Shown piece after piece: positions 7,358 to 26,940 of a stretch of 29,031 bases of DNA. Below the pieces are notes generated by a model. That model saw only the letters and a list, made by a program, of their open reading frames with translations, was not told the DNA's origin and searched no databases. Source of the DNA: a virus; IMG/VR virus record IMGVR_UViG_3300017746_004795, positions 1-29,031 of that record; one strand, 5' to 3'. The number at the start of each line of letters is the position of its first letter. Position 1 is the stretch's first letter. The position numbers and the translations under genes were made by a program.

Positions 7358-9219
7358 AGAGTGATTTTTTAGATTCAATCGGGGTTGAAGTCTCGACCTT
7401 TTCGCGGGAGGTCCAGGAACGGGTTTGGGTTCCTCGAGCTCGCTTAAACTTTGGCGACTATTGCGAGGAAAATATTATTCTCGGTTCGGCCGAAAATGCC
7501 GATTACGCCGGGCCGTATTCCCGCGAGATGACTCCTTCAGTCTCTCGGTTCCTCGAGGAATTTCTGGACGGTGGCGGCGGTGAAAGGTGGCGTGAGTGTT
7601 ATGGGGCAAAAGGTTCCCAAGCCGCGGTTACTGCTCATTCACTGATGGAGATGGTTCGAAGGGCAGATTATGCGCCCGGGAATATTGTATATGGTATCGA
7701 CGCACAGAAAAACGCGGGAGCGATCGCGGAAAGATACGTAGAGTTTTTGAAAAGCTCGCAATCTATGGGGGAGATTGTTGAGAAGCTTCCAGAGTCTTAT
7801 TTGAAAGGCGACGTCATTTCTCTCCCAGGCATGAAAGTTTATTTTGTCGGTGCTGGTTCGGTTGGTCAGGCCGCTTCGAAACCTGGGGTTGTCCTGGTCG
7901 TGATCGATGAAGTCGATACTCACAAAGAAACTAAAGTCGACGGTTCGACGGTTCACCTTTTCGCGCAACGGGGCAAAGCGACCGTTAGCGGAAAGATCCT
8001 GGGCTTTTCAAAACCGACCATCGAGGAGGGTCAAATCTGGCAGCTTGTGACAACCGGGAGCGGTCACCGGGATTTTGTTCCGTGTAAACATTGCGGACAT
8101 TTTCAGTTTTTAAAAATGAGCCAAGTCCGCTACCAACATTTGCGCGACAAATTTGGCGATCTCGATCTAGCTAAAGTGATCCAGGGGGCGGAATACGAGT
8201 GCGAAGCTTGTGGCGGAATGCACCATGAGAGCGACAAAAAAGAAATGCTCGCAAACGGGGAAGTCAGAGCCACGAATTACGTCGAGAAAGGGGAAGGGGA
8301 CCAGAAAGAAAAAGTTCCTGGTTGGCTCCCGAAAAGAATGAGCTTTTACCATAACGATTTATACGCACTTTGGGAGAATTCACGGTGGGGGAATCTCGCA
8401 GTTGAAAAACACGCGGCCGGGCGAGAGCCGGTAAAGCTCAAAGGATTTCTCCAAGATCGACTCGGGGAAGCCTGGGCAGAAGGCGGAGCTCGAAGGGTGC
8501 GCTTGAGTGACGTCCGGGATATGTGCGGGGAATACCGGCGGGGAACCGTTCCTAAAAAGCCCATACTTTGCGGCGTCTTTGCGGATACCCAGGACGATTC
8601 CTGGAAGGCTGTTAAAGTGGGCTATTCGGCCGAAGGTGATATTATGGTTTCCGATTGGGGTTCCTTTTTAACCTGGAAAAATTTCTTGTCCTGGGCTCGA
8701 GCCGGAATCGAGCACGATGGCGTGAAATACTCGGTCCGATGCAATTTGACCGACGAGGGCGGCCACCGGACTTATGAGGTTCGAAAGAATTGCTCGAAAC
8801 TGGCGCCAATTTTTAATCCATCAAAGGGAATAGGAGGAATGCAAGTGAGGCAACGCGGTGGCGACCTTCTTCGATGGAGTAAAAGCCGGGTTTTCAAAAC
8901 AACCCAAGAAGGGATGAGATTGGTCAAGGTGCTTCACTACGACGATGATTCATATCGAAGGCTTTTGTTTCGAACGCTCATTCTGGACCGCGACCAGGTC
9001 GACGAGGAAGGGGTTGAGGTTGAGCAATTTGGAAAGCTTAGTTTTCCCGTCGATGCCCTTCGAGATGACGAGTTTTTGCTTGAGCTCTGCCGAGAGTATC
9101 AAATTAAAAAGGCCGGGAAATGGGCCTGGGAGCACGAACCAGGGAACGACTTTGGGGACGCGGTCAAGATGTCGGTGATTGGTCGGGATGTTTGGTGCCG
9201 CTCCGCGGTGAGAGATTGA
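7354..9219 (+). CDS. Terminase large subunit, lambda gpA-like family
   Basis: 621 residues. The ATPase part has a variant Walker A, KGSQAAVT (86-93), with the lysine at the beginning of the loop as in lambda gpA rather than before the final Thr/Ser, and Walker B VVLVVIDEVD (179-188). Paired cysteines CKHC (244-247) and CEAC (283-286) form a probable zinc site typical of the GpA family. The nuclease domain starts near GVFADTQDD (D411), with further acidic residues at LTDEGGH (467-468) and near GNDFGDAVK at the C-terminus. It packages DNA into proheads. Its stop TGA lies inside the TTGACA signal of the next gene. Confidence 0.85.
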   Translation: MKSDFLDSIGVEVSTFSREVQERVWVPRARLNFGDYCEENIILGSAENADYAGPYSREMTPSVSRFLEEFLDGGGGERWRECYGAKGSQAAVTAHSLMEMVRRADYAPGNIVYGIDAQKNAGAIAERYVEFLKSSQSMGEIVEKLPESYLKGDVISLPGMKVYFVGAGSVGQAASKPGVVLVVIDEVDTHKETKVDGSTVHLFAQRGKATVSGKILGFSKPTIEEGQIWQLVTTGSGHRDFVPCKHCGHFQFLKMSQVRYQHLRDKFGDLDLAKVIQGAEYECEACGGMHHESDKKEMLANGEVRATNYVEKGEGDQKEKVPGWLPKRMSFYHNDLYALWENSRWGNLAVEKHAAGREPVKLKGFLQDRLGEAWAEGGARRVRLSDVRDMCGEYRRGTVPKKPILCGVFADTQDDSWKAVKVGYSAEGDIMVSDWGSFLTWKNFLSWARAGIEHDGVKYSVRCNLTDEGGHRTYEVRKNCSKLAPIFNPSKGIGGMQVRQRGGDLLRWSKSRVFKTTQEGMRLVKVLHYDDDSYRRLLFRTLILDRDQVDEEGVEVEQFGKLSFPVDALRDDEFLLELCREYQIKKAGKWAWEHEPGNDFGDAVKMSVIGRDVWCRSAVRD

Positions 9220-9221
9220 CA
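9216..9221 (+). promoter_or_regulatory. TTGACR late-gene start signal 1 (TTGACA)
   Basis: Its first T is 20 nt before the ATG at 9236. It overlaps the stop codon of the large terminase. Confidence 0.7.
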
Positions 9222-9235
9222 AGCGGGGGCTCGAT

Positions 9236-9550
9236 ATGAGTCAACCGATCAACCGTGCCTTGGTTCGAAGCCTGGCAAGACTTCACACTGTCGCACAATT
9301 AACCACCAAGCTCGACGCCGCAACCGCGGAGCTCGAGGAGGCGATGTCGGCCGACGTAGTGGTGACCGGTGCCAATATGAAAGAATCAGGAACGACTGGA
9401 GAATATCGGTCTGGTGCCCTGGACTTAAAGGTGAGAACCTATGAGGCCGCTATTGGACTTAGGAAAAGAACGGATGCCGGGGCGACTAACGGAGGGGCTA
9501 ACCGCAAAATGAATCACGTTAACTTTAGATTCCGCGAGTGGGGATTTTAG
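9236..9550 (+). CDS. Small head protein, possible head-tail joining (gpW-position) protein
   Basis: 104 residues between terminase and portal, the place of gpW in lambda. The N-terminal half is a helical hairpin (LARLHTVAQLTTKLDAATAELEEAM), followed by RTYEAAIGLRKRTDAGATN. It is longer than gpW (68 residues) and direct similarity is not clear, so the function is by position only. The start is fixed by the TTGACA signal 20 nt upstream. Confidence 0.5.
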   Translation: MSQPINRALVRSLARLHTVAQLTTKLDAATAELEEAMSADVVVTGANMKESGTTGEYRSGALDLKVRTYEAAIGLRKRTDAGATNGGANRKMNHVNFRFREWGF

Positions 9551-9554
9551 TCTG

Positions 9555-9560
9555 TTGACG
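9555..9560 (+). promoter_or_regulatory. TTGACR late-gene start signal 2 (TTGACG)
   Basis: 21 nt from its first T to the portal ATG at 9576, in the 25-nt gap after the preceding stop. Confidence 0.7.
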
Positions 9561-9575
9561 TAGTCGCTCCGACGC

Positions 9576-11105
9576 ATGGGGCAGGACTCAAAAAAATCAC
9601 GGCGAGGAACAAGGGCGGGAAAGAAAGTTCAAGCTAGGAAAGCGGCCTCAAAGGGACCAGTTGACGGATTGCCAAAAACAAAATCTGACCTAGTCAAAAT
9701 GATTTCGTCCTGGGATGCCGCCAGGCATTCCGAGCGACGCGGCCGGGTTGTTATGCCGTCGCTTAATCCGAAGCGTCGAGTTTCACCTACGGAAAGGCTT
9801 GAGATTTCTAGGAAGGTCGAAGCAGCCGAGCAAAATGTCGGATTTGTAAAACGTGCCATTGAGGGCCCGGCTCGACTTGTCGGGAATCTTCACCCGCAGA
9901 GCCAAGCCGGAAATGCCGACTTCGAAGCCGAAATCGAGGAGAAGGTCGGGAACCGGTTTAAAAATCACCTGGCATTTGATGCTGCCGGAAACTTTGATTT
10001 TAACGATTGGCAGACTTGGGTCCGCGAGTCAAAAATCAGAACGGGCGATTGCCTGACTGTTCTAGCTTCGGGCCCGGATGGCGCGGCTCGGGTGATGTGT
10101 TACGAGGGTAACCAAATCGGCGACGGTCAAGGGAGACGGGACCAACCGGAAAACCTTTATGATGGAATATTTTTGGATCGCTTTGGGGGACGCTCTGGAT
10201 TTCAGCTTTTAGACGATGAAGGAAAGGCGGCCAAAGTTGTTTCCCGCGATCGGTCAATCTATCATTCAATCGGAGGAAGAGCCGGGCGGGTTCGATCAGT
10301 GTCGGGCCTTGCTCACGCGGTGGCGAATTTCCTCGATATGGTCGAAATTATAGCCGACACAAAACACGCGGTTAAAGTGGCGGCTTTGTGGGGGGCTTGG
10401 ATTGAACAAGCGGCCAACACCGAAAACAACGAAGACCCAGGGGAAGACCTTCGAGGATTCCTCGAGGCCGCTGGAGAAACGGCCGAGATTGCAGAGGTCG
10501 AAGGGTTGGCTTCTGGCGAAACTTTACCGGATGGGAATATTTTAAGCGTCGAAGATGTTGTCCAGGGCGGTCGGTTCCAGGAATTTGCTCCAGGGCAAAG
10601 CTTGCAAACCATGAACGACACGCGGCCTCATCCGAACGTGCTCGGGCTTTTGTCCTGGTTAATTCGCGATATGGCTTGGGGACTTCCTCACGGAGGGCTT
10701 TCTCCCGAGGTTCTTTGGGACGCGTCGAAAATGAACGGTCCAGGGATGCGTTTTGTCATGGCTGAAACTCGCCGGTTTGTCGCTGATGAGCAAGAACGCA
10801 TGAGACGCGATTGTCAAAAGATTTGGATGTATTTCGCCGCTAAGGAATCTAAGCGAGGAAACCTGGTTATTCCGGCAGAGTTGCAAGCGACCTGGTGGAA
10901 GACTTCTTGGATTCCTCAAGCAGATTTGACAATCGATCGCGGTCGTGACGGGAAGCTTGACCTGGCTCTCCTCGATCAAGGGTTAATGACTCGTGAAGAA
11001 TGGTGGGCTCGCCAGGGGAAAGACTGGAAAACCGAGGAAGCAAAAGTCGCTCGAGAAAAAGCATTCATCCAGGAACAACGGGCCGCGGCCGGGTTGGTAG
11101 ACTAA
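9576..11105 (+). CDS. Portal protein, lambda gpB-like family
   Basis: 509 residues, the usual size of this family. A basic N-terminal tail (KKSRRGTRAGKKVQARKAA) precedes the body. Family-like stretches are RTGDCLTVL, the YEGNQIGD segment, HSIGGRAGRVRSVSGLAHAV, NVLGLLSWLIRDMAWGLPHG and the C-terminal DQGLMTREEWWARQG. It forms the dodecameric vertex ring through which the terminase pumps DNA and to which the neck attaches. Order terminase-small protein-portal-protease matches lambda. Confidence 0.85.
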   Translation: MGQDSKKSRRGTRAGKKVQARKAASKGPVDGLPKTKSDLVKMISSWDAARHSERRGRVVMPSLNPKRRVSPTERLEISRKVEAAEQNVGFVKRAIEGPARLVGNLHPQSQAGNADFEAEIEEKVGNRFKNHLAFDAAGNFDFNDWQTWVRESKIRTGDCLTVLASGPDGAARVMCYEGNQIGDGQGRRDQPENLYDGIFLDRFGGRSGFQLLDDEGKAAKVVSRDRSIYHSIGGRAGRVRSVSGLAHAVANFLDMVEIIADTKHAVKVAALWGAWIEQAANTENNEDPGEDLRGFLEAAGETAEIAEVEGLASGETLPDGNILSVEDVVQGGRFQEFAPGQSLQTMNDTRPHPNVLGLLSWLIRDMAWGLPHGGLSPEVLWDASKMNGPGMRFVMAETRRFVADEQERMRRDCQKIWMYFAAKESKRGNLVIPAELQATWWKTSWIPQADLTIDRGRDGKLDLALLDQGLMTREEWWARQGKDWKTEEAKVAREKAFIQEQRAAAGLVD

Positions 11106-11107
11106 CG

Positions 11108-11401
11108 ATGGCAAAAAGTAAGTTTGCCCCGGCGAGGTGCCTCGCGATTGACGTCGACGGAACGCTTCTAAAGCGGGGGAAAATCAACTGGCCTCTAGCA
11201 AATTGGGCGAAGCAAAAAAAGCTCGAGGGGTTCGAGGTCATCTTGTGGACTGCTCGAGGACGACCACACGCCGCCGCGGTGGTGGAGCGGTTCGAGCTCC
11301 AGGATCATTTTTCGGCTGTCATCGGGAAGCCTGGTTACATTGTCGACGATATGGGGTGGGGGTGGACCAGGTTCACAAAGATCGTGACCAAGTTTCTTTA
11401 G
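11108..11401 (+). CDS. Minimal HAD-superfamily phosphatase-like protein
   Basis: 97 residues, starting 2 nt after the portal stop. All HAD motifs are recognisable in a capless core: motif I DVDGTL (15-20), motif II WTAR (47-50), a lysine at 74 in GKPG, and motif IV VDD (79-81). It is therefore probably an active Mg-dependent phosphatase or phosphotransfer enzyme rather than a degenerate relic. Its place in the head operon, between portal and protease, is odd because head assembly needs no known phosphatase. Substrate unknown; nucleotide, protein or nucleic-acid ends are all possible. Confidence 0.75.
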   Translation: MAKSKFAPARCLAIDVDGTLLKRGKINWPLANWAKQKKLEGFEVILWTARGRPHAAAVVERFELQDHFSAVIGKPGYIVDDMGWGWTRFTKIVTKFL

Positions 11402-11407
11402 TTGACG
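11402..11407 (+). promoter_or_regulatory. TTGACR late-gene start signal 3 (TTGACG)
   Basis: Starts directly after the TAG of the HAD gene and lies 21 nt before the protease ATG at 11423. In frame it could be misread as a TTG start for the protease. Confidence 0.7.
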
Positions 11408-11422
11408 CAATACGGTCAAGCT

Positions 11423-12607
11423 ATGGCAAAAGAATCTTGGTTTGAAATCAGCAACTCCGCGGACCTCGAGCCCCGGAACGAAGGCGGCCGCGTTGCGCGG
11501 GTCGACATTATGGGGCCGATTGGTGGCTGGGATGTTTCTGGTTCCGAGTTTTTGCGAGAGCTTAAAGACCTCGGAGACGTCGACTCCATAGATTTGCGGA
11601 TTCATTCACCGGGTGGTTCGGTCCTTGATGGCTGGGCGATTGCCAACGGAATCAAAAACCACCCGGCGCACGTTGTCGCCAGGGTCGAAGGGCTTGCCGC
11701 TTCAATGGGTTCGGTTGTTTTGATGTCAGCCGACGAGATCGAAGTCCCGGAAAATGCTTACGTAATGATCCACAACGTAAGCGGCGGAGCATTCGGAGAA
11801 GCCGAAGAACTTGAAAGCATGGCGGCACTCATGAGAAAACTCCAGGACGACGTTACTGATTTTTATGCCAACGCGACCGGGAAAGACCGAGAAGAGATTG
11901 CCGAGATGATGGCGGCCGAAACCTGGATGAATGGAGAAGACGCGGTCGAACATGGATTTGCAACTCGCGTTCTCGAACCAGTCAAGGCGGCCGCTTGTGC
12001 CGACCTCGAGACTCTTGTTTCTAAGTTTGAGAATGTTCCCGAGGCAGTCCTCGAGCTCCAAGCCAAAGAGCCCGCCCTCGAGGAAGACCAGGTCGAGGAG
12101 GTTGAGGCACTCGAGGAAGACCAGGTCCAAGAATCCGACGACCAGGAAGCGGCCGAGATCGAGGCCGACCAGGAGGAAATCGAAAAAGAATTGCAGGACG
12201 AAGTGGAGGCAAAAGCCGAGCTGTCGACCTGGGCCAGAATTTTGGCAGCCTTATCGGGTGATAAGAGCGCCGAGAACGACGGGGAATCGAGCGCAAAAGC
12301 TGCTCTTGTCCGTGCTGAAAAACTCGAGGCGGAACTCTCCGGCCGGGTTGATGAGCTCGAAAAAATCCAGGATGAACTTGAGATTTTAAGAGCCGAAAAC
12401 AAGGAACTGGAAAACTGTGCGCTTACGGTCGAATCCCGCTTAATCGAGTGTGGTTTTGACTTTGCAGAAGCGGCCGACCTTCCGGCTCCAAATGCCAAAA
12501 ATGTTGGCAACGTCCTCGAGTCTTACCTGGCAATGCAACCAGGTCAGGAGCGAAGAGAATTCTTTGCAAAAAACCGCAAGGAAATCGAAAGACTTCAATC
12601 GGAGTAA
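11423..12607 (+). CDS. ClpP-like head maturation protease with C-terminal scaffold-like region
   Basis: 394 residues. The first 185 form a ClpP/crotonase-fold serine protease: IHSPGGSV (60-67, oxyanion loop), GLAASMGS with the nucleophile S94, and MIHN with H117; the acidic triad member probably lies later in the domain. Residues about 205-270 are extremely acidic and Gln-rich (LEEDQVEEVEALEEDQVQE, with repeated EEDQV), followed by a coiled coil (about 290-345). This resembles lambda gpC/Nu3, in which a scaffold follows the protease. The protease would trim head proteins and the tail would guide capsid assembly. Start chosen at ATG 11423 by the TTGACG spacing. Confidence 0.85.
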   Translation: MAKESWFEISNSADLEPRNEGGRVARVDIMGPIGGWDVSGSEFLRELKDLGDVDSIDLRIHSPGGSVLDGWAIANGIKNHPAHVVARVEGLAASMGSVVLMSADEIEVPENAYVMIHNVSGGAFGEAEELESMAALMRKLQDDVTDFYANATGKDREEIAEMMAAETWMNGEDAVEHGFATRVLEPVKAAACADLETLVSKFENVPEAVLELQAKEPALEEDQVEEVEALEEDQVQESDDQEAAEIEADQEEIEKELQDEVEAKAELSTWARILAALSGDKSAENDGESSAKAALVRAEKLEAELSGRVDELEKIQDELEILRAENKELENCALTVESRLIECGFDFAEAADLPAPNAKNVGNVLESYLAMQPGQERREFFAKNRKEIERLQSE

Positions 12608-12650
12608 GGGCGAAAAACTAAAACCAAAAACAACTTAACTATCTAAAAAA

Positions 12651-13502
12651 ATGGCAAACACATTTGCAGCAGCCCTCGCAGTGGACACACTCGCCGAGGA
12701 ATCAATTACAACCCTTGGCCCGGTTCTTTCCGTGCTTGATAACTTTAGCTTAGACGTTGCTGTCAATCCAGTCGCGCCTGGCAGCCGGATTCAAGTCGAA
12801 GTCGTTTCGGGTGGCGCAACCGCTCAGACGAATCCCTCGAGCTATACCTCAAGCAGTGACTCCACAAAAATCGCTCGTGCCGTAACAGTCAACCAGCACT
12901 CGATTTCATTTAAAGTCACACAAGCCGAGCTCAACAATGGGCATCGTCTTCGCTCACTTCTTCGGAAGAATCTCCAGGTTATTGGAACCGCTTGCCGCGA
13001 TGCGGTTTTTGCTCCAATCACCGCAGCAAACTATGGGGCCGCTGTTCTGGATTCAACCGCAGCAAACTTTGACTCCAGCGACCTTCAGACCGTTTGGGCT
13101 GGAACTAAAGACTTCCCAACTCGTCACCTGATCCTCGACGGAGCTTATTATTCAAAGCTTCTTCCTACCAACTCTGATTCGTTCCTTCCTGGTCAAGCCG
13201 GGGCTTACGGATTTGATTCTATTGGGGTCAACAATCGTTGGGACGGTGCCGAAGACGACACAATCGGTTTTGTCGGTTCCGCTGACGCCCTTGCAATCGC
13301 TTCCGGAGAGCCAATCATGGACGATGAGATCCAAGATCTCCTCAGCTTCTACGAAGCAGTCGAGCTCCCTGGAGGTTTGACCGCTTACCTTTCAAGCTTC
13401 ACTGATCTTGGGACGCGCACTCGCTACATGAACATCAGCGTAATGCTTGGTGCTGCTGTGGGTGACTCTACCGCTGGGGCTATCATCACGGATGGCACCT
13501 AG
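12651..13502 (+). CDS. Major capsid protein
   Basis: 283 residues directly after the protease-scaffold and closed by a strong terminator, as for a highly expressed coat gene. The sequence is rich in Ala, Ser, Asp and Thr, with features of HK97-fold coats: a helical N-terminus, a strand-rich region (IQVEVVSGG, VTVNQHSISFKVT), a long helix (LRSLLRKNLQVIGTACRDAV), and a terminal domain containing FPTRHLILDGAYYSKL. The 43-nt leader is A/C-rich, ending CTAAAAAA just before the ATG, with neither SD nor TTGACR. The fold is inferred from context. Confidence 0.8.
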   Translation: MANTFAAALAVDTLAEESITTLGPVLSVLDNFSLDVAVNPVAPGSRIQVEVVSGGATAQTNPSSYTSSSDSTKIARAVTVNQHSISFKVTQAELNNGHRLRSLLRKNLQVIGTACRDAVFAPITAANYGAAVLDSTAANFDSSDLQTVWAGTKDFPTRHLILDGAYYSKLLPTNSDSFLPGQAGAYGFDSIGVNNRWDGAEDDTIGFVGSADALAIASGEPIMDDEIQDLLSFYEAVELPGGLTAYLSSFTDLGTRTRYMNISVMLGAAVGDSTAGAIITDGT

Positions 13503-13521
13503 GATTTAAAACAACCATTGC

Positions 13522-13558
13522 AAGCGCGGAGGGCTGGGGGGCTTTCCGCGCTTTTTTT
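13522..13558 (+). terminator. Rho-independent terminator after the capsid gene
   Basis: Stem AGCGCGGA (13523-13530) pairs with TCCGCGCT (13545-13552) around a G-rich 14-nt loop, followed by a run of seven T. It separates the packaging/head genes from the neck/tail genes. Confidence 0.85.
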
Positions 13559-13571
13559 GTGCCCTGGTGGA

Positions 13572-13577
13572 TTGACG
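13572..13577 (+). promoter_or_regulatory. TTGACR late-gene start signal 4 (TTGACG)
   Basis: 20 nt before the ATG at 13592. It is preceded by GTGCCCTGG right after the terminator, a context repeated at 15742-15757. Confidence 0.7.
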
Positions 13578-13591
13578 ACCTCGGTCTTGCT

Positions 13592-13909
13592 ATGGGTTTG
13601 GCGACGTCGCGAATTGCATTTTTAGAGAAAGCCCAGGAATCGCTTGAGAGCGTCTTTCCTGGTTCGATGACCTACAATGGTTCGACCTTTGCTTGCTCGA
13701 GGTCGGGGCTCGAGGTCGTCCAGGGAGCCGAGCCCGGCGGGTTCGAAAACGAGGGCCGCGTGATGGTCCGGGTTCGAACTGCTAACCTTCCGGCCGCTGG
13801 GCTTCCCAGGGAAACCGCGGTCACTTTGGATTCGGTTGAGTATCGCGTCGAGGAATGTTTGCTCGAGCCTGGTGACGTCGCTTGGAGTGTCGAACTTGAA
13901 ACAGTCTAA
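13592..13909 (+). CDS. Putative head-tail connector (neck) protein
   Basis: 105 residues. The ATG at 13592 is preferred over one at 13559 because the earlier one lies inside the T-tract of the terminator and the TTGACG spacing points to 13592. The protein is strand-rich (GRVMVRVRTANL, AVTLDSVEYRVEECLL, VAWSVELETV), like small head-completion or stopper proteins such as gpFII. It is the first gene of the tail transcript, which fits a neck role; family not recognised with certainty. Confidence 0.55.
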   Translation: MGLATSRIAFLEKAQESLESVFPGSMTYNGSTFACSRSGLEVVQGAEPGGFENEGRVMVRVRTANLPAAGLPRETAVTLDSVEYRVEECLLEPGDVAWSVELETV

Positions 13910-13915
13910 AAAAAG

Positions 13916-14125
13916 ATGAGCAGAAATCAAAAAGGATTAGCTTACAAAAAGCGGGGCCGCGGGACTGGTTACAAGGCTGGAATGGAAAGGTTTTGCGGCG
14001 TCGAGTTTAAGGCTCTCAGGCTTCTCGATGAGGTCCGGGAGGCTTGTGACAAATGGCTCGAGGCGAATGAAGACCGTGGGTCAAATTGGGATTCATTCAA
14101 GTATGGCAAAAACGCCAAAAAATGA
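13916..14125 (+). CDS. Small basic protein of unknown function in the neck region
   Basis: 69 residues, ATG 6 nt after the previous stop and preceded by AAAAAAAG. The N-terminus is basic (KKRGRGTGYKAG) and the middle is helical (EFKALRLLDEVREACDKWLE). It overlaps the next gene by ATGA. No family recognised; the coupling implies it is translated with the tail-assembly genes. Confidence 0.5.
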   Translation: MSRNQKGLAYKKRGRGTGYKAGMERFCGVEFKALRLLDEVREACDKWLEANEDRGSNWDSFKYGKNAKK

Positions 14126-14799: not shown

Positions 14800-14802
14800 C
14801 GA

Positions 14803-14808
14803 TTGACG
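14803..14808 (+). promoter_or_regulatory. TTGACR late-gene start signal 5 (TTGACG)
   Basis: 21 nt before the ATG at 14824, within the 24-nt gap after the previous stop. In frame it can be misread as a TTG start. Confidence 0.7.
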
Positions 14809-14823
14809 AGCCGGGTTCTCTGC

Positions 14824-15258
14824 ATGGTGGTATCTGATCGGCTTCTAGTCGCCCTGGGCGAGTTTTTGAATCAAGACCTGTCTTTAAACCTAACTCCCAG
14901 GCTTCGAGACTATGGCGGCACAAAGGCGGCCAAGACTCTTATATTGGACGCTCAAGACCCGGTCGAGCACGAGGCACTCGACGGGGTTTATGAGCTCGAC
15001 GGTGAGGTGATCTTAAAGTTTCGAAACCGCGACGTCGCGGACGCCACGCAAAGGAGCGAGCTTTCCCAGGTTAACGACGCTCTTCGAGCTCGGGCAATCG
15101 ATTGGATAAACGACACCGACAACGCTCGCGGCCTGGGAAGTGATGAGCTCAAAGTTTTTGACCTTCGAACCACCGACGGAGCTTTCGAGCAAGAGGACAA
15201 GTTTCTCCTGGGCCGAGTGGGATTCTCGGCGGTGATTGTTGGCTTGGACCCGGCCTAA
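14824..15258 (+). CDS. Putative tail terminator protein (gpU-position)
   Basis: 144 residues. It sits just before the tail tube gene, where gpU-type tail terminators are found. A helical N-terminus (LLVALGEFLNQDL) is followed by mixed strands and helices (GVYELDGEVILKFRNRD; RARAIDWIND; LGRVGFSAVIVGLDP), compatible with the alpha/beta fold of tail terminators. The call rests on gene order and general pattern. Confidence 0.5.
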   Translation: MVVSDRLLVALGEFLNQDLSLNLTPRLRDYGGTKAAKTLILDAQDPVEHEALDGVYELDGEVILKFRNRDVADATQRSELSQVNDALRARAIDWINDTDNARGLGSDELKVFDLRTTDGAFEQEDKFLLGRVGFSAVIVGLDPA

Positions 15259-15261
15259 AGG

Positions 15262-15267
15262 TTGACG
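15262..15267 (+). promoter_or_regulatory. TTGACR late-gene start signal 6 (TTGACG)
   Basis: 20 nt before the tail tube ATG at 15282. Confidence 0.7.
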
Positions 15268-15281
15268 GCATTCCGCGGGGT

Positions 15282-15671
15282 ATGAGCGCAAAGATTTACG
15301 GAGCGGCTGTTTTTGGAGTCACCGCAGAAGTTGGTATGTATGCCCAAGACCTTTCGGTCAGTTACAGCATTGACGAGACTTTTCTCCCTGATGAAGCTGG
15401 TGATGATGTCGCGGCAGGGTTTACAAATGCCAAAGCGTCAATTTCCATAAACGGATTTGTCAAAACTGGTGGAAGTGCTTTTTCTACGGATCTGGGAGCC
15501 TCTCTCGCAGTTGCGAATTCTATCGACGCCGCCAGCTTTGTAAATGGAGCATCTGACGACGACGCTGGAGAAACAATCCTGACCGGGGTAAGTTTAGGCT
15601 ACGGCAATAAAGCATTTAAGAGTCTAGACCTGACCGGTGTTTTCGCTCCGTTCTTAGGTGCGGCCCAATAA
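15282..15671 (+). CDS. Putative major tail tube protein
   Basis: 129 residues, followed by its own terminator, as expected for an abundant tail component. The sequence is Ala/Gly/Ser/Asp-rich and strand-forming (FGVTAEVGMYAQDLSVSYSI; ASISINGFVKTGG; TGVSLGYGNKAFKSLDLTG). It is three genes before the tape measure, with the terminator and the chaperone pair around it, which is the tail-tube position. Identity is inferred from context. Confidence 0.6.
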   Translation: MSAKIYGAAVFGVTAEVGMYAQDLSVSYSIDETFLPDEAGDDVAAGFTNAKASISINGFVKTGGSAFSTDLGASLAVANSIDAASFVNGASDDDAGETILTGVSLGYGNKAFKSLDLTGVFAPFLGAAQ

Positions 15672-15688
15672 TTTTCTCACCGACAATG

Positions 15689-15742
15689 AGCGGTCGACCG
15701 GGGTTCTGTGTGTGTTTTTCATCTCCCGGCGGCCGCTTTTTT
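15689..15742 (+). terminator. Rho-independent terminator after the tail tube gene
   Basis: AGCGGTCGACCGGG (15689-15702) pairs with CCCGGCGGCCGCT (15725-15737), leaving one bulged A and one G-T pair, and is followed by six T. The loop is T/G-rich. It parallels the terminator after the capsid gene. Confidence 0.8.
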
Positions 15743-15751: not shown

Positions 15752-15757
15752 TTGACG
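15752..15757 (+). promoter_or_regulatory. TTGACR late-gene start signal 7 (TTGACG)
   Basis: 21 nt before the ATG at 15773, preceded directly by GTGCCCTGG after the terminator T-run. The spacing selects ATG 15773 over the adjacent in-frame TTG at 15770. Confidence 0.7.
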
Positions 15758-15772: not shown

Positions 15773-16228
15773 ATGACAGAACAAAATTTAAAACGAGGCG
15801 GCCCGGTCGTCTCGATGGGCGGCAACAGCGACGAAGCGAACTTCGACACCAGGGATTCACTTCTTGCCGGGGCTCTCATGGCGCTTGGAATTGAGCCGGT
15901 CGACGCGGAACCATGCAGGATAATCACTCGCGAGCACTTGAGCGGGTCAACGTATCAATTCTATTTTAAGCCCCTCTCAAACTGCGGAAAGTTTAGGACT
16001 CGAGAGCTCCTTGGATATTGGGCCCAGGGGAATGAATGGGTCGAGAAGAATCCCGACCATCCTTTTGCGTATGCCATCGCGGCGGTCAAAAACTACCGGG
16101 GTCTTTTGGACTTCATTAATAAAAAGGTTCCCTATGGATGGGTTAGCCGAGGCAAAAGCTTCGCAATGCTTCCCCTGGACGCATCAAGCGAGACTGAGGA
16201 AATCATTTTAGGAAGGATGTCGAAATGA
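15773..16228 (+). CDS. Tail-region protein of unknown function
   Basis: 151 residues between the tail tube and the tail chaperones. Residues 60-130 are aromatic and basic (STYQFYFKPLSNCGKFRTRE; NPDHPFAYAIAAVKNYRGLL). No motif is recognised. It overlaps the G gene (ATGA), so it is expressed with the tail-assembly chaperones and may itself be an assembly factor. Confidence 0.55.
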   Translation: MTEQNLKRGGPVVSMGGNSDEANFDTRDSLLAGALMALGIEPVDAEPCRIITREHLSGSTYQFYFKPLSNCGKFRTRELLGYWAQGNEWVEKNPDHPFAYAIAAVKNYRGLLDFINKKVPYGWVSRGKSFAMLPLDASSETEEIILGRMSK

Positions 16229-16623: not shown

Positions 16624-16868
16624 TCAACCCGCCAGGTGACGAAGCTCCCTGGTGGGCAACCTATGTTTCCGCCCTGGTCCCTGTGACCGGCCGGGATGAT
16701 GATTTTGTTTTGTGGCGTTTGCCCTACGCTAGAGGTCTTCGATACCTTCACGCGGTAGCGGTGGCCAATGGAACGACAATGGAGCTCGAGGAAGGAGACC
16801 AGGCAAAGAGAGATTCTCTTTTTGATGGATTCCAAGACCTTAGAGCCCGACACGGTCTCAAAGATTGA
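16225..16868 (+). CDS. Tail assembly chaperone GT-like fusion by -1 frameshift
   Basis: Reading G to the AAG at 16594-16596 and slipping back one base continues in a frame open to TGA 16866-16868, giving about 214 residues: 124 from G plus a 90-residue T part that begins ESPSGFESLINPPGDE. The slippery heptamer A AAA AAG (16590-16596) is the kind used by dnaX. A small hairpin AGCCC-GTC-GGGCT (16599-16611) begins 2 nt downstream, and a second alternative hairpin overlaps it. The T frame has no good start of its own. The next gene is the tape measure, the classical arrangement. Frameshifting is inferred, not shown. Confidence 0.7.
16587..16611 (+). promoter_or_regulatory. -1 programmed frameshift site (slippery A-run plus hairpin)
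   Basis: Nine A followed by G contain A AAA AAG in the zero frame of the G gene. The hairpin AGCCC/GGGCT follows after 2 nt. Confidence 0.65.
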
Positions 16869-16870
16869 CA
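16865..16870 (+). promoter_or_regulatory. TTGACR late-gene start signal 8 (TTGACA)
   Basis: 21 nt before the tape measure ATG at 16886. Its TGA is the stop codon of the T frame. Confidence 0.7.
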
Positions 16871-16885: not shown

Positions 16886-18451
16886 ATGGCAGCATTGACG
16901 TTCAAAGTCGGCGGAGATACCACTGGTTTAGGCCGAGCAGTCTCAAAGGCAAAAGGGATGCTCTCGGGTCTAGGAACAGCGGCAAAAAATTTAGCTCTTG
17001 GCGGGGCGGTCGCGGGTTCGGTTGCGGCGATTGGTTCCGCTTTTCGAGGGTTAAAGCTTGCCGCGGAAATGGAACAAGTCTCGGTTGCGATGGAGGTGAT
17101 GACCGGGAGCGCAGAAAAAGGAAATCGGGCTATTGAGGCACTGATGGAGTTTTCAAACTCAACTCCTTTAAAACCTGATGAGGTTGTTTCGGCTGGCCGG
17201 GCTTTAATTGCTTTTGGGACTGAAGCCGACGAGGTCGTCAATGTTCTTAAAAAAGTGGGAAACGTCGCGGCGGGCATTGGTGCGCCACTTGGTGAGATTG
17301 CAGAAATCTACGGAAAGGCTCAGGTAAGCGGTCGGCTCTTTGGTGAAGACATCAATCAAATGGCTGGGAGAGGCATTCCAATCCAAAAAGAACTTGCGAA
17401 AGTTTTGGGGGTTACAACTTCAGAAATTAAGAAAATGGTTTCTGACGGGAAGGTCGGATTTCCAGAGCTCGAAAAAGCTTTCACTAATATGTCTAGAAGC
17501 GGAGGTAAATTTGCCGGGATGCTCGATAAACAATCAAAAACATTTTCTGGACTATTATCAACTCTAGTCGGCAAACTTAACGATTTAGTCAGAAATGTCG
17601 GTGTAGGTTTAATGGAGTCACTAAAGCCAGTGTTAAACGCTTTAATTTCTTTAGTGGATGAAAATAGTGAGGCCGCCAAAAGGTTTGGTCAGAATATTAA
17701 AGAAGCTGTTTTAGTTATTACAGAAGCATTTAAAACGGGTGTTCTTGGAGAGCTTTTGAAAAGCAGTTTTTTGTTTGCATCTTCCTTTTTGGTAAACGCT
17801 GTCGTTCAAGGATTTGCAACGGCGGGCGAAATTCTTATGAAGGCCGCGGTCGGGGTTGGGGAAATCATCGGCGGAATCTTTTCGTCGTCCAAAATGGAAG
17901 CTTTTTTAAAGACCATGAAGCTAGGTGCTTTTGAGTTAGTTGTCCCCGACGTTTCAAGCGTCCCAAATCCGTTTGGGCGGGAAGCACTAGAGAACAAAAG
18001 AAATGAACTTATTGAGGAGGCGATGAATGCTTTTGATAGGGTTGATGGTGGCCAAGAAGCTATTTTTAGCGACTTCAAAAAATTCGTGCCTACTTTAATG
18101 GACTCGGAAAAGCATCGAAAAAATTTACAGGACGTAATAAACCCGCTTTTAGATGCGGTGAGAGAAAGGGAAAAAAATTCTAGCCAAGTCGACCGGCCGG
18201 ATATTACTGACGTCGGGAATCCGTCTCGGGCGTCTTTGTTTGGGCTGGATAAAAAAGAAGAAGAAAAGAAAAAGGAAGAAGACCGTTTTAGCTTTAAGAT
18301 TTTAAAGCCGATTGTTTCAAGCTTAGGGAGAATCGGCGGTGATGGAGCTCGAGGGCAAAGCGTCATTTTTCGAATGGATAAGGAGCGCAACAAGCTCCTA
18401 AAGGACATCGCCTTTAATACCGGGAACGGGACGACCGCAGTCTTTGGCTAA
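16886..18451 (+). CDS. Tail tape measure protein
   Basis: 521 residues. The N-terminus (FKVGGDTTGLGRAVSKAKGM) and residues about 60-215 match the common tape-measure domain: AEMEQVSVAMEVMTGSAEKG, then ALIAFGTEADEVVNVLKKVG, QVSGRLFGEDINQMAGRGIP and GKVGFPELEKAFTNMS. Hydrophobic segments follow (about 285-330). The C-terminal third is highly charged (KKEEEKKKEEDRFSFK). By the rule of thumb of about 1.5 angstrom per residue, the tail would be short, roughly 80 nm. Base composition drops in GC from about 17500 to 18200. Confidence 0.85.
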   Translation: MAALTFKVGGDTTGLGRAVSKAKGMLSGLGTAAKNLALGGAVAGSVAAIGSAFRGLKLAAEMEQVSVAMEVMTGSAEKGNRAIEALMEFSNSTPLKPDEVVSAGRALIAFGTEADEVVNVLKKVGNVAAGIGAPLGEIAEIYGKAQVSGRLFGEDINQMAGRGIPIQKELAKVLGVTTSEIKKMVSDGKVGFPELEKAFTNMSRSGGKFAGMLDKQSKTFSGLLSTLVGKLNDLVRNVGVGLMESLKPVLNALISLVDENSEAAKRFGQNIKEAVLVITEAFKTGVLGELLKSSFLFASSFLVNAVVQGFATAGEILMKAAVGVGEIIGGIFSSSKMEAFLKTMKLGAFELVVPDVSSVPNPFGREALENKRNELIEEAMNAFDRVDGGQEAIFSDFKKFVPTLMDSEKHRKNLQDVINPLLDAVREREKNSSQVDRPDITDVGNPSRASLFGLDKKEEEKKKEEDRFSFKILKPIVSSLGRIGGDGARGQSVIFRMDKERNKLLKDIAFNTGNGTTAVFG

Positions 18452-18457
18452 TTGACA
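18452..18457 (+). promoter_or_regulatory. TTGACR late-gene start signal 9 (TTGACA)
   Basis: Begins 1 nt after the tape measure stop codon (TAA, 18449-18451) and lies 21 nt before the ATG at 18473. Confidence 0.7.
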
Positions 18458-18472: not shown

Positions 18473-19201
18473 ATGGCGAACAAAATTTATCACCCCGGGA
18501 ACCTGGTCGCAATGCCAGGTTTCAAGGCTTCAAAAGATAACGCGGGACTTTGGACGGGGACGCAAATGTATCACTGCAAAGAATCTGAGCTTTTGAATCT
18601 CATGCCCCGCCAGGGGAGCCCGCATCCAAAGTTTCCTTACTTAGCTCTTGAAACGGTTTCGTTTGAAATCTTCCAGGAGGGGCTTGCCAAGATTACCGCG
18701 GGTTATGCCGGAGCTTCCTTTGGGTTCGATGGTTCAGATGAGCCCGAAGAGGAATATAATTTGGACATCTCAACAAGCGAGGAACCTATTTCGACTCACC
18801 ACCGCTATGACGCCTTAAGTGCTCAGGACATCCTTGAAGCGGTAGAGTTAGCAACAAATCCTCCAAGAGGAGAGGATGGCAAAACAGTAAAGCAGCCTAA
18901 TACAACAGGTTGGGCCAATGAAAAGCTCGAGCTTTACAGGGACACTAAAAAAGGAATCGAAGCCTACCGGGAGCCCAGGGTCACCTGGTCAAAACGGTGG
19001 ATTTCAAAAGAAAAGCCAACTGGTTTAAATGATATTGGGAAAAGCGTCCCTAATCCAGAAGGCGACCCTCCACAAGTTGCGGCCGGGAGAAATTGGTTAA
19101 ACATTGGAATTCGTTCGCGTGAGCGGGGCAAAGTCTACGAAAACGAAATCACCTGGGAGCTCTCGGGCCGTGGTGGATGGTTAGCACGTTACTACAGTTA
19201 A
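18473..19201 (+). CDS. Tail protein downstream of the tape measure, unknown family
   Basis: 242 residues, in the place where distal tail proteins are usually encoded. Visible features are a Gly/Tyr-rich central strand region (AKITAGYAGASFGFDG), an acidic linker (EPEEEYNLDI) and a C-terminal segment rich in Trp and Arg (VTWSKRWISKEKP; ITWELSGRGGWLARYYS). It does not resemble Dit or gpM/gpL-type proteins by eye. A tail-tip or baseplate role is inferred from position only. Confidence 0.5.
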   Translation: MANKIYHPGNLVAMPGFKASKDNAGLWTGTQMYHCKESELLNLMPRQGSPHPKFPYLALETVSFEIFQEGLAKITAGYAGASFGFDGSDEPEEEYNLDISTSEEPISTHHRYDALSAQDILEAVELATNPPRGEDGKTVKQPNTTGWANEKLELYRDTKKGIEAYREPRVTWSKRWISKEKPTGLNDIGKSVPNPEGDPPQVAAGRNWLNIGIRSRERGKVYENEITWELSGRGGWLARYYS

Positions 19202-19204
19202 GCC

Positions 19205-20311: not shown

Positions 20312-20315
20312 TCGG

Positions 20316-20321
20316 TTGACG
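20316..20321 (+). promoter_or_regulatory. TTGACR late-gene start signal 10 (TTGACG)
   Basis: 20 nt before the ATG at 20336, in the 24-nt intergenic gap. Confidence 0.7.
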
Positions 20322-20335
20322 TTGCTTCGCGCACT

Positions 20336-21442
20336 ATGGTGCTTTATGTAGATCTCGATCAGGGCCGCTTTGTCGGGGCTCCTGGTTTTGGTGGGCAAAC
20401 CACTAGCATCGATCACAAGCGCGGAGACAGTGGCACGGTTACTCTCCAATTTTGCCAGTCCACAAGCCTGGTTTCACTCCCGGATGATTCGCTGATAATC
20501 TTCCAGGGCAAGCAGGATGGTAAATACGAGGCTTGTCCGTTGATTGAGTGCTCGAACTTTGCAAATGCCGCGTCGGCCGGGGGGGCTCACGTTGGGACGT
20601 TAATGTATGATCTGACGGCTCTAAATGCCCTTCTAAACCAAGATGGTGATTCGACAAACGACATCGAATTTATCAACGCGATGTTCGAAGTCTCTTGGCA
20701 AACTCCTGGAAGCGGATGGTCTTCAACCGACACTTTAAAGGGAAAAATTTATAACGACGTAGTGAAAACCACGGTCGGGGTGCTTGCCCAAATCCCGTCG
20801 GAAGTTCCCGCGGTCAAGGCTTCGGCGGTTTCTCAATTTGCAGGCACCCAAACCATTTCAATTTCCGCGGGAGCCCTAACCGTCGGAACCTGGTCTGTCA
20901 ATCTTTGGGACGGGTCGACCGGTAGCGCTCCCGCGGTTCCTTATTTGAGGTATTCCGGGAATGGAGACTGGGATGAGTGGCTGACGGCCTTGGCAGAATT
21001 GATAAACACCGGGGGGGTGACTCAAACAGGTTTTACACTTGTTGGAACCAGGGCAGCGTCGACTCAAGTAATTGCAACCAAAACAATCGTAAGTTCAACC
21101 ATCCTTTTGGATTTTACGGCCAAGCTCGCAGGAGCCTCGGGCAACTCTATCAGCTATCTTTTAGCAGCGGTTTCGTCGTCTGATGCGGCTGGGAATCTAA
21201 CTGGTGGAGCGGATGGGAGAACGATTGAGAAGCAGGATTTAGTTACGACGACACCAACCAACTTTACCGCGTCGCAAAAAACCCAGGTCATTACCAATCT
21301 TCTCGAAAGCTCAATATTGACAGTCCCGGGCGACCTAGAAACGACAGGCTCGGCCAACGGCTTAATTTTAAAAAGCCCTAACGGAAACCGATACCGGGTC
21401 CAAGTTCAAAACAATGGAACGCTGGCGACGACTCAACTTTAA
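20336..21442 (+). CDS. Baseplate / tail protein with BppU-like N-terminus
   Basis: 368 residues. The N-terminal 150 residues resemble the N-terminal domain of BppU-type baseplate proteins: a region on allowed input values (KRGDSGTVTLQFCQ, SLIIFQGKQDGKY), then TLMYDLTALNALL and a final WSSTDTLKGKIYNDVV strand pair. The rest is a repetitive strand-rich stalk (about 155-300), ending with LKSPNGNRYRVQVQNNGTLA, a short C-terminal module typical of tail proteins. It probably anchors receptor-binding proteins to the tail tip. Confidence 0.55.
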   Translation: MVLYVDLDQGRFVGAPGFGGQTTSIDHKRGDSGTVTLQFCQSTSLVSLPDDSLIIFQGKQDGKYEACPLIECSNFANAASAGGAHVGTLMYDLTALNALLNQDGDSTNDIEFINAMFEVSWQTPGSGWSSTDTLKGKIYNDVVKTTVGVLAQIPSEVPAVKASAVSQFAGTQTISISAGALTVGTWSVNLWDGSTGSAPAVPYLRYSGNGDWDEWLTALAELINTGGVTQTGFTLVGTRAASTQVIATKTIVSSTILLDFTAKLAGASGNSISYLLAAVSSSDAAGNLTGGADGRTIEKQDLVTTTPTNFTASQKTQVITNLLESSILTVPGDLETTGSANGLILKSPNGNRYRVQVQNNGTLATTQL

Positions 21443-21470
21443 AAAATAAAATCAAACCCTAAAAAAGAAA

Positions 21471-21719
21471 ATGCCACTGTCCACAAGCACAGACCCAAAA
21501 ATCATAAATTGCAGTCCTGGGAAAACTTATTTTATTACAACAGACGAAGGTTCGATTTTGGTTGAATCAATAGTCGCGGACCCGGTTGCTGGTGACGTTA
21601 CGAAAACCGAGGGCACACTTTTAGATGGCGATCGTCGACGTTATGAAGGAGGGGCAAACAAGCTCAAAATCACACCAGGAGCGGCCGGGATTTTCTATAC
21701 CGTCACCGAGGCAAAATGA
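21471..21719 (+). CDS. Small strand-rich structural protein
   Basis: 82 residues, preceded by a 28-nt A-rich leader (CCTAAAAAAGAAA) without SD or TTGACR. It reads as a small beta-domain (KTYFITTDEGSILVESIV; KLKITPGAAGIFYTVTEAK). It is coupled by ATGA to the first tail fibre, so it may be an adaptor or decoration protein at the tail tip. Family unknown. Confidence 0.5.
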   Translation: MPLSTSTDPKIINCSPGKTYFITTDEGSILVESIVADPVAGDVTKTEGTLLDGDRRRYEGGANKLKITPGAAGIFYTVTEAK

Positions 21720-23029
21720 GCGACACACTAACACCATCAGGGCTCCAGAGCAGTGCCGGTCTTTATGGTAGTTGCGGGGTCTATCAATTCGATCGCAATG
21801 GGGCTATCTTCAACCCTTTAGATCTTAACCCATATCTTCTTTTCGACGCTGAGAGCTCGATGATTGGCACCCTCGAGAATCCAACCCTGGACCTCGACCC
21901 TACAAAACAAGAATCGCTTGACGTAATCACAGCGACGCGGGCAGGAAATGCAACTTTCGTCAATTTAGACGGCGAAATTGAAATCGCTCAACCGAACACC
22001 GTTCGAGTTGATAACTCTTTAGGCTACCCGGCTATTCTCATAGAACCTTCGGCAACAAACTTGATTACTTACAGTGAAGACTTTAGCCATTCAAGTTGGA
22101 CGAAAACAGCAGCGACAATGGAGGGCGGTCACACTGCTCCTGATGGAACTGCAACCGCTTATAAACTTATTGAAGATAACACCGACTCGGTTCACCGGAC
22201 TTTTCAAACAGCAACCGCATCAGTTTCACCAAGCGCGTCTATTTCCGTGTTTGTTAAATACAGCGGCAGACGTTACGTTTTAATCAGGTTCGCAGACCAA
22301 TCAGTCGGACGTTGGTATGATTTAATTAGTGGAACACTCGGCGGCACTTACCTCGGAACACCAAATGATTCAAGCATAGAGCTTATCGGAAACGATTGGT
22401 ATCGGATTACGCTGAGTCATACTTCAGATGCACAAGCACGATGTGAGTTTTGGGTTTCTGATACCGAATCTGTTTCTTCATACACTGGAGATGGCACAAG
22501 CGGAGTCTACATCTGGGGCGCACAGCTAGAGGCCGGAAGCTTAACGTCCTACATACCCACATCAGGTTCCACCGTGACGCGAGCCGCTGACGACCTTGTT
22601 ATTTCCGGCAGTGCCTTTAGTAGTTTCTATAATGCAAGTGAAGGGACGTTTTACGTTGAGGCGCAATCGAAAGAATCAGCGACCTACCAACCGCATTACC
22701 TAGAAGCACATGATGCGTCTGGACAAAATAGATTTGCGGTATACACGCAAAGTGTAGCTCGCGTCTTCGTAACCGCAAACAACAGTGTTCAAGCTCACTT
22801 GAGTCTCGGCTCTTACACGGCAAACCAATTACAACGAGTCGCTGCATCATATAAGGTTAATGATTTCGTAGGTTCGTCGAATGGAAGTTCAGAAGCCGGA
22901 GATGCTAGTGGGTTAGTCCCGGTGAATCCAACCGCTTTAGCGATAGGCCGACGATATGCAGACGGTTATCATATCCAAGGGCATATTAAACGCTTGATAT
23001 TTTGGCCATACCATAGCGATAGCCTGTAA
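21716..23029 (+). CDS. Tail fibre / receptor-binding protein with lectin-like domains
   Basis: 437 residues. From about 110 the sequence follows a pattern widespread in tail fibres: ATNLITYSEDFSHSSW, a carbohydrate-binding-like beta-sandwich, then WGAQLEAGSLTSYIPTSG near 266-283. The remaining 150 residues look like a concanavalin/LamG-type lectin fold (GTFYVEAQS, NRFAVYTQS, RVAASYKVND, LAIGRRYADGYHIQGHIKRL). It should bind cell-surface glycans. Codon use is less GC-rich than in head genes. Start by ATGA overlap. Confidence 0.7.
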   Translation: MSDTLTPSGLQSSAGLYGSCGVYQFDRNGAIFNPLDLNPYLLFDAESSMIGTLENPTLDLDPTKQESLDVITATRAGNATFVNLDGEIEIAQPNTVRVDNSLGYPAILIEPSATNLITYSEDFSHSSWTKTAATMEGGHTAPDGTATAYKLIEDNTDSVHRTFQTATASVSPSASISVFVKYSGRRYVLIRFADQSVGRWYDLISGTLGGTYLGTPNDSSIELIGNDWYRITLSHTSDAQARCEFWVSDTESVSSYTGDGTSGVYIWGAQLEAGSLTSYIPTSGSTVTRAADDLVISGSAFSSFYNASEGTFYVEAQSKESATYQPHYLEAHDASGQNRFAVYTQSVARVFVTANNSVQAHLSLGSYTANQLQRVAASYKVNDFVGSSNGSSEAGDASGLVPVNPTALAIGRRYADGYHIQGHIKRLIFWPYHSDSL

Positions 23030-23051
23030 TTAATAATATATATTTCAAACA

Positions 23052-25580: not shown

Positions 25581-25583
25581 AAA

Positions 25584-25907
25584 ATGAATGACGCCACTCA
25601 TCGCTTCTTCCTTTTCTCAATCGAGGAAAATTATAACGAGCTTTTACAACGAGGCAACGAAGCCAGGGAACTTCCGTCGGAAACAACCGAAAGGTGGATT
25701 GCAAAATGGGAGGACTTATTTCTCGATCCAGAAACTTCCACCTCTCGCCTTTATTGCATCAAGAGGGAAATTATTCTAGAAACAGACATTTTCGAGATGG
25801 ACGGGGTCGAAGAGATTGACCTGGAAACCTACCTGGCACGACTGCGCTGGGAGCCACCGGTCGAGGATGATTTGAAAATGATTGACGAGCTCGAGCTTGT
25901 TGAATGA
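25584..25907 (+). CDS. Small acidic protein after the tail fibre; unknown
   Basis: 107 residues, ATG 3 nt after the fibre stop. It is rich in Glu, Trp and aromatic residues (ENYNELLQRGNEARELPSET; LARLRWEPPVEDDLKMIDEL). By position directly behind a receptor-binding gene it could be a fibre assembly chaperone, but no known family is recognised. It is coupled to the following gene. Confidence 0.5.
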   Translation: MNDATHRFFLFSIEENYNELLQRGNEARELPSETTERWIAKWEDLFLDPETSTSRLYCIKREIILETDIFEMDGVEEIDLETYLARLRWEPPVEDDLKMIDELELVE

Positions 25908-26263
25908 TGGACGAAAACCCCGAAAATCAGGAGCCTTTGACTCCAATCCAAGAAAGCCAGGCAAAGACCGGTTTTCGATTTTTTTCCTGTGATGTCTTGG
26001 TCTACGACCAGCTATCAAAAAAGGTCGATGAGTCTCGCGGATACCCAAACAACCAGGGCACCACTCTGAGAGGGCTTCCCGAGTCTCAGTTCCTGCAAAT
26101 GGCGACTGATGGAAGTGGCAATATTCTAATTGCAATCGATTGCTGGAGGTTTACTCCGGAGGATGACGCCATGATTGAAGCGGCGGGTGATGCAATCAAA
26201 GAGCTCACTCAGACCGAGTTTAATTTGATTCGACCGGCCGCGGTAGAACTTGAGGCAGAATAA
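25904..26263 (+). CDS. Small protein of unknown function, possibly fibre-associated
   Basis: 119 residues. Two adjacent ATG codons (25904, overlapping by ATGA, and 25907) are possible starts. The N-terminus is hydrophilic (ENPENQEPLTPIQESQAK); the middle (FFSCDVLVYDQLSKKVDES; NILIAIDCWRFTPEDD) forms mixed strands and helices. Function unknown. Its stop shares a base with the next start (TAATG), linking it to the lysis genes. Confidence 0.5.
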   Translation: MMDENPENQEPLTPIQESQAKTGFRFFSCDVLVYDQLSKKVDESRGYPNNQGTTLRGLPESQFLQMATDGSGNILIAIDCWRFTPEDDAMIEAAGDAIKELTQTEFNLIRPAAVELEAE

Positions 26264-26439
26264 TGGACAACCATTTGATGTTCCACCCGGTGACTGGTAT
26301 CTTGGCGGCCTCTTATGCCGCGGTTTCGCCTCATATTGAATTTTTCCAAGTCACGCTCTCGATTGTGTCGGGACTCATTGCGCTGATGATTGGCGTTTTA
26401 TCTCTCGCCAACACCTGGCGAAACTTCCGCAAAAAGTAA
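26263..26439 (+). CDS. Small single-span membrane protein, candidate holin
   Basis: 58 residues, with start TAATG-coupled to the previous gene. The protein has one strong hydrophobic segment at about 28-50 (QVTLSIVSGLIALMIGVLSL) and ends in a basic tail (NTWRNFRKK), a topology usual in small holins and lysis regulators. It precedes another membrane protein and the amidase. Too short to assign a family. Confidence 0.6.
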   Translation: MDNHLMFHPVTGILAASYAAVSPHIEFFQVTLSIVSGLIALMIGVLSLANTWRNFRKK

Positions 26440-26452
26440 GCCCTGGGCACGG

Positions 26453-26458
26453 TTGACG
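26453..26458 (+). promoter_or_regulatory. TTGACR late-gene start signal 11 (TTGACG)
   Basis: 20 nt before the ATG at 26473; preceded by GCCCTGGGCAC, similar to the GTGCCCTGG context of signals 4 and 7. Confidence 0.7.
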
Positions 26459-26472
26459 AAATCCTCCCAGGC

Positions 26473-26940
26473 ATGACTAAGAAGATTCTTGCCGGTCAAA
26501 TCCGCGAACTTGTCAATGCGGTGGGCGGAGCGGTGGCGGCCTTTGGTTTTGTGAACCAAGAAATCGCGTCAGCTTCCGGGGGAGTGTTGCTCTCGGTCCT
26601 CATGTTGATTTGGGGCATCAAAGATAAGGAAGGTTTTTCTGTCCTTGCCTCCCTAGTTCGAAAGCTCATTGCCTCGGCGGCCGGTGCCGCTTTGGTGCTC
26701 GGTTGGCTCGACAAAGAAAAATTTGAGGCTCTCGAGTTTATTTCGGCCGCGGTCTTGCCGGTCGTTCTTGGGTTCTCCGCCAAAGCCAACGGCGTGAAAG
26801 TCATCAAAGGGCTCCCGGTGCTTTTGTTTTTTGCCTTTCTTGCCCTGGCTCTCCCCTCATGCGGGGCCTCGATCGAGTATGACCTTGGTCCAGGATTCGG
26901 CGGGGCCATCATTGGGATCGAAATCCCTCATCAAAAATGA
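26473..26940 (+). CDS. Holin-like membrane protein with C-terminal lipobox segment
   Basis: 155 residues. Hydrophobic segments lie at about 14-27, 33-49, 60-78 and 88-103, consistent with a holin. The C-terminal 48 residues read as an independent lipoprotein precursor: VKVIKGLPVLLFFAFLALAL, then PSC with Cys130, followed by a 25-residue strand-rich tail. V108 is encoded by GTG at 26794, so a nested in-frame start would give a 48-residue lipoprotein, as for a small outer-membrane spanin. Full-length protein, nested product, or both are possible. It overlaps the amidase by ATGA. Confidence 0.65.
   Translation: MTKKILAGQIRELVNAVGGAVAAFGFVNQEIASASGGVLLSVLMLIWGIKDKEGFSVLASLVRKLIASAAGAALVLGWLDKEKFEALEFISAAVLPVVLGFSAKANGVKVIKGLPVLLFFAFLALALPSCGASIEYDLGPGFGGAIIGIEIPHQK

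Follow-up and report, generated by a model that had tools for sequence, protein, structure and literature searches.

Late genes of a tailed phage, known from a virus record of 29,031 nucleotides that is possibly incomplete (this whole stretch is what we call the window), carry a short box, TTGAC, at a nearly fixed distance before their start codons. Judging from sequence patterns, we hold with moderate confidence that late genes have in this box, placed at -19 to -22, a phage-specific element for initiating translation, which would be read by a putative trans factor. In the clade of the window and its nearer relatives the element takes the form TTGACR-N8-C, with the C at -6 if the distance from the first T to the start codon (the offset) is 20. 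The pattern suggests a special signal that may help to activate genes for the virion and for lysis in the late phase of infection.

A preliminary description of this DNA had listed eleven TTGACR sites 20 or 21 nt before late starts, and all eleven are confirmed with their positions and offsets (eight TTGACG, three TTGACA). For 24 late starts, the 80 nt upstream contain TTGACR at no offsets other than 20 (five starts), 21 (six) and 22 (one); the offset-22 case, start 25904, was absent from the earlier list. The exceptions given there, starts 12651, 21471 and 23052, are correct, and all three have AU-rich leaders. The sites and their surroundings are as follows.

9216..9221, plus strand: TTGACA box, offset 20 to the ATG at 9236, 104 aa gene after TerL; includes the upstream TGA stop
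9555..9560, plus strand: TTGACG box, offset 21 to the ATG at 9576, portal
11402..11407, plus strand: TTGACG box, offset 21 to the ATG at 11423, ClpP-type head protease
12621..12650, plus strand: AU-rich leader without box, before the probable major capsid gene at 12651; the orthologs examined also have no box
13522..13558, plus strand: intrinsic terminator 3' of the probable capsid gene, -24.6 kcal/mol
13572..13577, plus strand: TTGACG box, offset 20 to the ATG at 13592, 105 aa gene; just 3' of the intrinsic terminator
14803..14808, plus strand: TTGACG box, offset 21 to the ATG at 14824, 144 aa gene
15262..15267, plus strand: TTGACG box, offset 20 to the ATG at 15282, 129 aa gene
15688..15742, plus strand: terminator-like hairpin with T run, -25.4 kcal/mol
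15752..15757, plus strand: TTGACG box, offset 21 to the ATG at 15773, 151 aa gene; just 3' of the terminator-like hairpin
16865..16870, plus strand: TTGACA box, offset 21 to the ATG at 16886, tape measure; includes the upstream TGA stop
18452..18457, plus strand: TTGACA box, offset 21 to the ATG at 18473, 242 aa gene
20316..20321, plus strand: TTGACG box, offset 20 to the ATG at 20336, 368 aa gene
21441..21470, plus strand: AU-rich leader without box, start 21471
23022..23051, plus strand: AU-rich leader without box, start 23052
25882..25887, plus strand: TTGACG, a doubtful member, offset 22 to the ATG at 25904, within the upstream gene; the ortholog in G099 has no box
26453..26458, plus strand: TTGACG box, offset 20 to the ATG at 26473, 155 aa holin-like gene

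From its position, the 129 aa gene at 15282 is possibly that of the major tail protein. Many boxes overlap the upstream stop codon or closely follow one. The pattern TTGACRN14-15ATG has 13 matches on the plus strand of the window and none on the minus strand, and the reversed pattern has none; with the spacer widened to N13-17 there are 14 matches against 2.2 expected, a number reached in no shuffle. When the 23 sites of the late region were placed randomly in about 200,000 trials, the best pair of adjacent offsets held at most 4 of them, against 11 observed. These and the following counts are affected by the way late starts were picked (by homology and with a simple ORF caller) and by several motif leaders being near-duplicates among close relatives.

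The preliminary description had held that loss of the hexamer from related phages would speak against its idea. We made the comparison on related contigs obtained through searches with the protease, TerL and the capsid protein, and the idea survives it: nine related phage records, with TerL 51-99% identical where compared, keep the box before homologous late genes. Most or all phages having them carry it before the 104 aa, portal, protease, 105 aa, 144 aa, 129 aa, 151 aa, tape-measure, 242 aa, 368 aa and 155 aa genes. The rule is broken by the 151 aa gene of three phages and the 242 aa gene of G101, and in three other instances the spacing is altered. Offsets of 26-27 at the 105 aa gene (G002:C186 and L159) and of 23 before the 129 aa homolog (G100) were counted as exceptions. 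None of the nine probable capsid starts examined is preceded by a box, nor are the phage early genes examined. Among orthologs the offset shifts between 20 and 21, and the box is anchored to the start codon, GTG starts included, with a tolerance of 19-22 nt. The compared leaders were chosen for having the core, so what is informative is how similar the bases around it are: 25-57% identity in orthologous motif leaders that retain the box.

The signal extends to phages that are much further diverged. Several genes of the G102 clade, whose TerL is 29% identical to that of the window over the aligned part, are preceded by TTGACW at offsets 19-21. When IMG/VR was scanned with a DNA pattern derived from the element, the known relatives came back together with several other contigs, most of which show no repeated signal. 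One of them, 3300037307_000719, encodes homologs of the window's portal (23% identity), tape measure (22%) and 242 aa protein (31%), and has TTGAC at offset 19 before 8 of its 37 candidate plus-strand starts; among 41 reverse-strand candidates there is one TTGAC within 60 nt, at offset 12. The scan selected for one site on this contig, and the remaining ones are independent of that selection. The signal of this motif-found lineage is TTGACN at offset 19, and it stands on the orthologous portal, tape-measure and 242 aa genes.

There is also a second conserved position. It had been stated that the spacers share no sequence, which proves too strong: 14 nt after the first T, all 12 window sites have a pyrimidine, which is C in 10 of them, and this base is mostly C throughout the window clade and nearer relatives. 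Among 41 distinct leaders with offset 20, 95% have C at -6 and all 41 have a pyrimidine directly before the start; in motif leaders overall, A hardly ever occupies this place. The motif-found lineage does not show the conserved C with any regularity.

What distinguishes late genes with the box from those without it is the kind of leader. Motif genes (n=87) have an AU content of 0.37 in -15 to -1, and 11% are Shine-Dalgarno-like (SD-like). Late genes without the motif are either preceded by a gap of at least 10 nt (n=26), with an AU content of 0.71, or start less than 10 nt from the upstream stop (n=40). The AU difference has p=1.5e-8 and the association of motif with gap p=1e-10, both values being optimistic because the phages compared are related. 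Such a three-way split, into leaders with the box, AU-rich leaders and starts close to a stop, is what a translation-initiation element would give. Early genes are enriched in SD sequences (51% versus 14% in the control); motif genes are not (12% versus 9%), where we looked for a purine-rich core complementary to CCUCC at about -5 to -13. Counting against such an element, moderate structure is predicted for the start region of motif leaders. In G002:C186 the box is missing from the T/A-rich leader of the 151 aa gene, which lies 3' of a T-rich stretch; it looks as though the box stood in for a translational feature.

What the sequence shows directly is a conserved box with its spacing, found on late genes only and distributed so as to avoid AU-rich leaders and close-coupled starts; from this we infer that it would act in RNA, raise translation and have a factor reading it. 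Transcription of the late genes would give long mRNAs, on which the box would be needed by cistrons that have a GC-rich leader devoid of an SD sequence and a start not close to an upstream stop. There a putative trans-acting factor would bind it as RNA and place the 30S subunit on the downstream start codon; an RNA-binding protein encoded by the phage, or an initiation complex altered by it, is the most likely candidate. The more specific proposal of an SD-independent code for late genes, in which a phage factor or a modified ribosome would recognise UUGAC 19-22 nt before the start, we put forward only tentatively, as something short of probable; early and late genes would then use different initiation signals. 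Three explanations had originally been offered for the hexamer, namely a non-SD translation signal, a late-regulator site and a processing site; the first appears to fit best.

The alternative that survives best, rather unlikely in our opinion, is that TTGAC-N9-C is a late promoter element, at which an altered RNA polymerase would start at or next to the A of the ATG and produce leaderless mRNAs, so that late mRNAs would need no ribosome-binding site. The pyrimidine, or non-A, before the start would also fit transcription starting at that A, and the rigid two-part form, restricted to late genes, is equally promoter-like. Further, two window sites lie directly 3' of terminator-like hairpins, and SD enrichment, which leaderless mRNAs would not need, is missing from the predicted genes of the two Verrucomicrobiota genomes sampled for it, G002 (L124-L143) and G023 (L315-L340). 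G002 also has weak CTTGA words near -37 and TACT words near -12, which suggest promoters at leaderless distance. Against all this, the stretch between box and ATG is GC-rich, and G-rich in several clades, with no -10 box that could melt; the earlier rejection of a sigma-70 promoter holds as well, since -10-like hexamers occur 15-19 nt downstream in 7% of cases and inside genes in 6%, and none of the 11 sites is among the promoter-like hits in the window. Nor was a polymerase or sigma factor recognised among the window proteins searched (the record may be incomplete). Some genes 3' of hairpins or T-rich stretches have no box, and its presence tracks the gap to the upstream stop and the AU content. 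It is the split of the leaders, together with the absence of a -10 and the G-rich stretch, that leads us to prefer a translational element over a leaderless promoter.

We give less credence to UUGAC being an RNA processing site, at which an endonuclease would cut the late polycistron nearby to leave short leaders for a low-SD host. The frequent position of the box at or just 3' of the upstream stop codon is in line with this, and so are the two sampled genomes without SD enrichment; yet cleavage alone explains neither the tight distance to the ATG nor the conserved C at +14, and no nuclease candidate was identified.

Still less probable is that the phage merely borrowed a translation or promoter signal used throughout the host genome, although temperate phages usually rely on host signals. 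The Verrucomicrobiota genomes sampled speak against it: data at the level of gene starts come from G002, G023, G288, G303 and G074, a scan of 388 genomes giving counts, and no TTGAC peak at the phage offsets is seen in 319 genes of G002, in 771 starts of G023 or in smaller samples from G288 and G303, two of the densest genomes. G023 carries a prophage with the signal while its own genes lack the peak, and phage early genes have no box. Some genomes of the order do contain TTGACRN14-15ATG in excess over an N17-18 control; in G074, the one genome inspected for this, the matches lie mostly in coding sequences and 1 of 30 is start-like, and the host-wide reading of the excess was rejected.

Pairing of the box with 16S rRNA, or with a phage small RNA carrying GUCAA, we consider highly improbable: the 16S rRNA of G002 does contain CCGCCCGUCAA, complementary to both halves of the element of the GC-rich clade, and leaders of clades B and C pair with this segment slightly more strongly than shuffles, but the segment is the decoding centre and cannot be reached from position -20, the window's own clade is barely above shuffles, and there is neither an Rfam match in the window nor an obvious conserved antisense RNA. 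The pairing with CGUCAA of 16S rRNA suggested earlier is thus unsupported as a mechanism, since the segments are internal and GUCAA is missing from one of the three 16S genes examined.

The closest described kind of element is the SAS/ESAS of cluster K mycobacteriophages, GGGATAGGAGCCC, which has an SD-like core and lies immediately upstream of starts, mostly outside structural genes (Pope et al. 2011, PMC3203893; PMC12699233). Both are short asymmetric repeats tied to gene starts in one phage group, for which a role in translation is suggested, and the TTGAC tag is likewise repeated at many starts and kept on orthologs of diverged phages. It differs from SAS in lying at -19 to -22, in having no SD core and in preceding structural and lysis genes. 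The SAS consensus itself is not enriched: a scan allowing up to 3 mismatches gave 5 matches against 6.7 expected.

Work on phages of Bacteroidetes describes a phage-encoded bS21 and a ribosome takeover at a late stage (PMC9723584). It proposes that in SD-poor hosts translation comes to favour phage structural genes late, which resembles our proposal. That system acts through a trans factor, and the accessible text mentions no cis element; here there is a cis element, and a search for a bS21 gene in nine phage records, some of them fragments, gave no match over the cut-off. The Com protein of Mu binds a leader and thereby turns on translation of mom (PMC6483171), but Com has one target gene; the TTGAC tag has many, and no Com-like protein was recognised. 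SD-independent initiation in Bacteroidia relies on upstream adenines and low structure (PMC9976891), which resembles the AU-rich leaders of the capsid gene and other genes without the box; GC-rich leaders of the TTGAC type are not described in the part of that article consulted.

If the element is translational, the switch from early to late genes would take place at the level of initiation, and the box would aid gene calling in uncultured phages of this group. How start codons are chosen in SD-poor bacteria and their phages is, to our knowledge, largely an open question. A late-gene element of strict spacing, kept across about 23% portal identity, offers a directly testable entry to it, namely to find its reader.

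The window has genes for ParB, primase, TerL, portal, ClpP-type protease, tape measure, endolysin and integrase, and its probable capsid protein resembles one from the Akkermansia phage Moulinsart (25.6%). The contig of one relative was placed in a Verrucomicrobiales MAG by binning. For the motif-found lineage, a relative is located in a Verrucomicrobiota genome, on a 120 kb contig where bacterial-type genes are present too, e.g. for a histidine kinase. Phages carrying the start tag are linked to Verrucomicrobiota. A near-identical relative (L084) is binned to an alphaproteobacterial MAG (Marinovum) on a 5.6 kb contig that is possibly misbinned; for the window phage itself, Verrucomicrobiota are therefore a putative host group.

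Several smaller observations may be added. Moulinsart, which was reached through its capsid protein, has no TTGAC at -20; it has (L191) a repeat, GAGACGGYRGGGA, at three gene junctions (2788, 4643 and 15317), each copy running into or up against the 3' end of the preceding gene. In a 65 kb phage a palindrome, CCCTTGCGCAAGGG, stands directly 3' of the TTGAC box in two gene leaders (L288, 10688-10711; L289, 96-119). A conserved, mostly helical protein encoded at 1859-2509 of the window was found in six relatives, and its model, of moderate quality, gave no confident fold match against a PDB library. In the search for a reader of the box, a 219 aa protein turned out to look like a small terminase. 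At 3833-4267 a GNAT acetyltransferase gene adjoins the primase gene, an arrangement kept in the relatives that cover the region. At the left end of the window (196-483) there are TTGTCCAAC-like repeats on both strands, with 6 of the 7 window matches (at most 1 mismatch) clustered there; near the ParB and primase genes, they are possible iterons.
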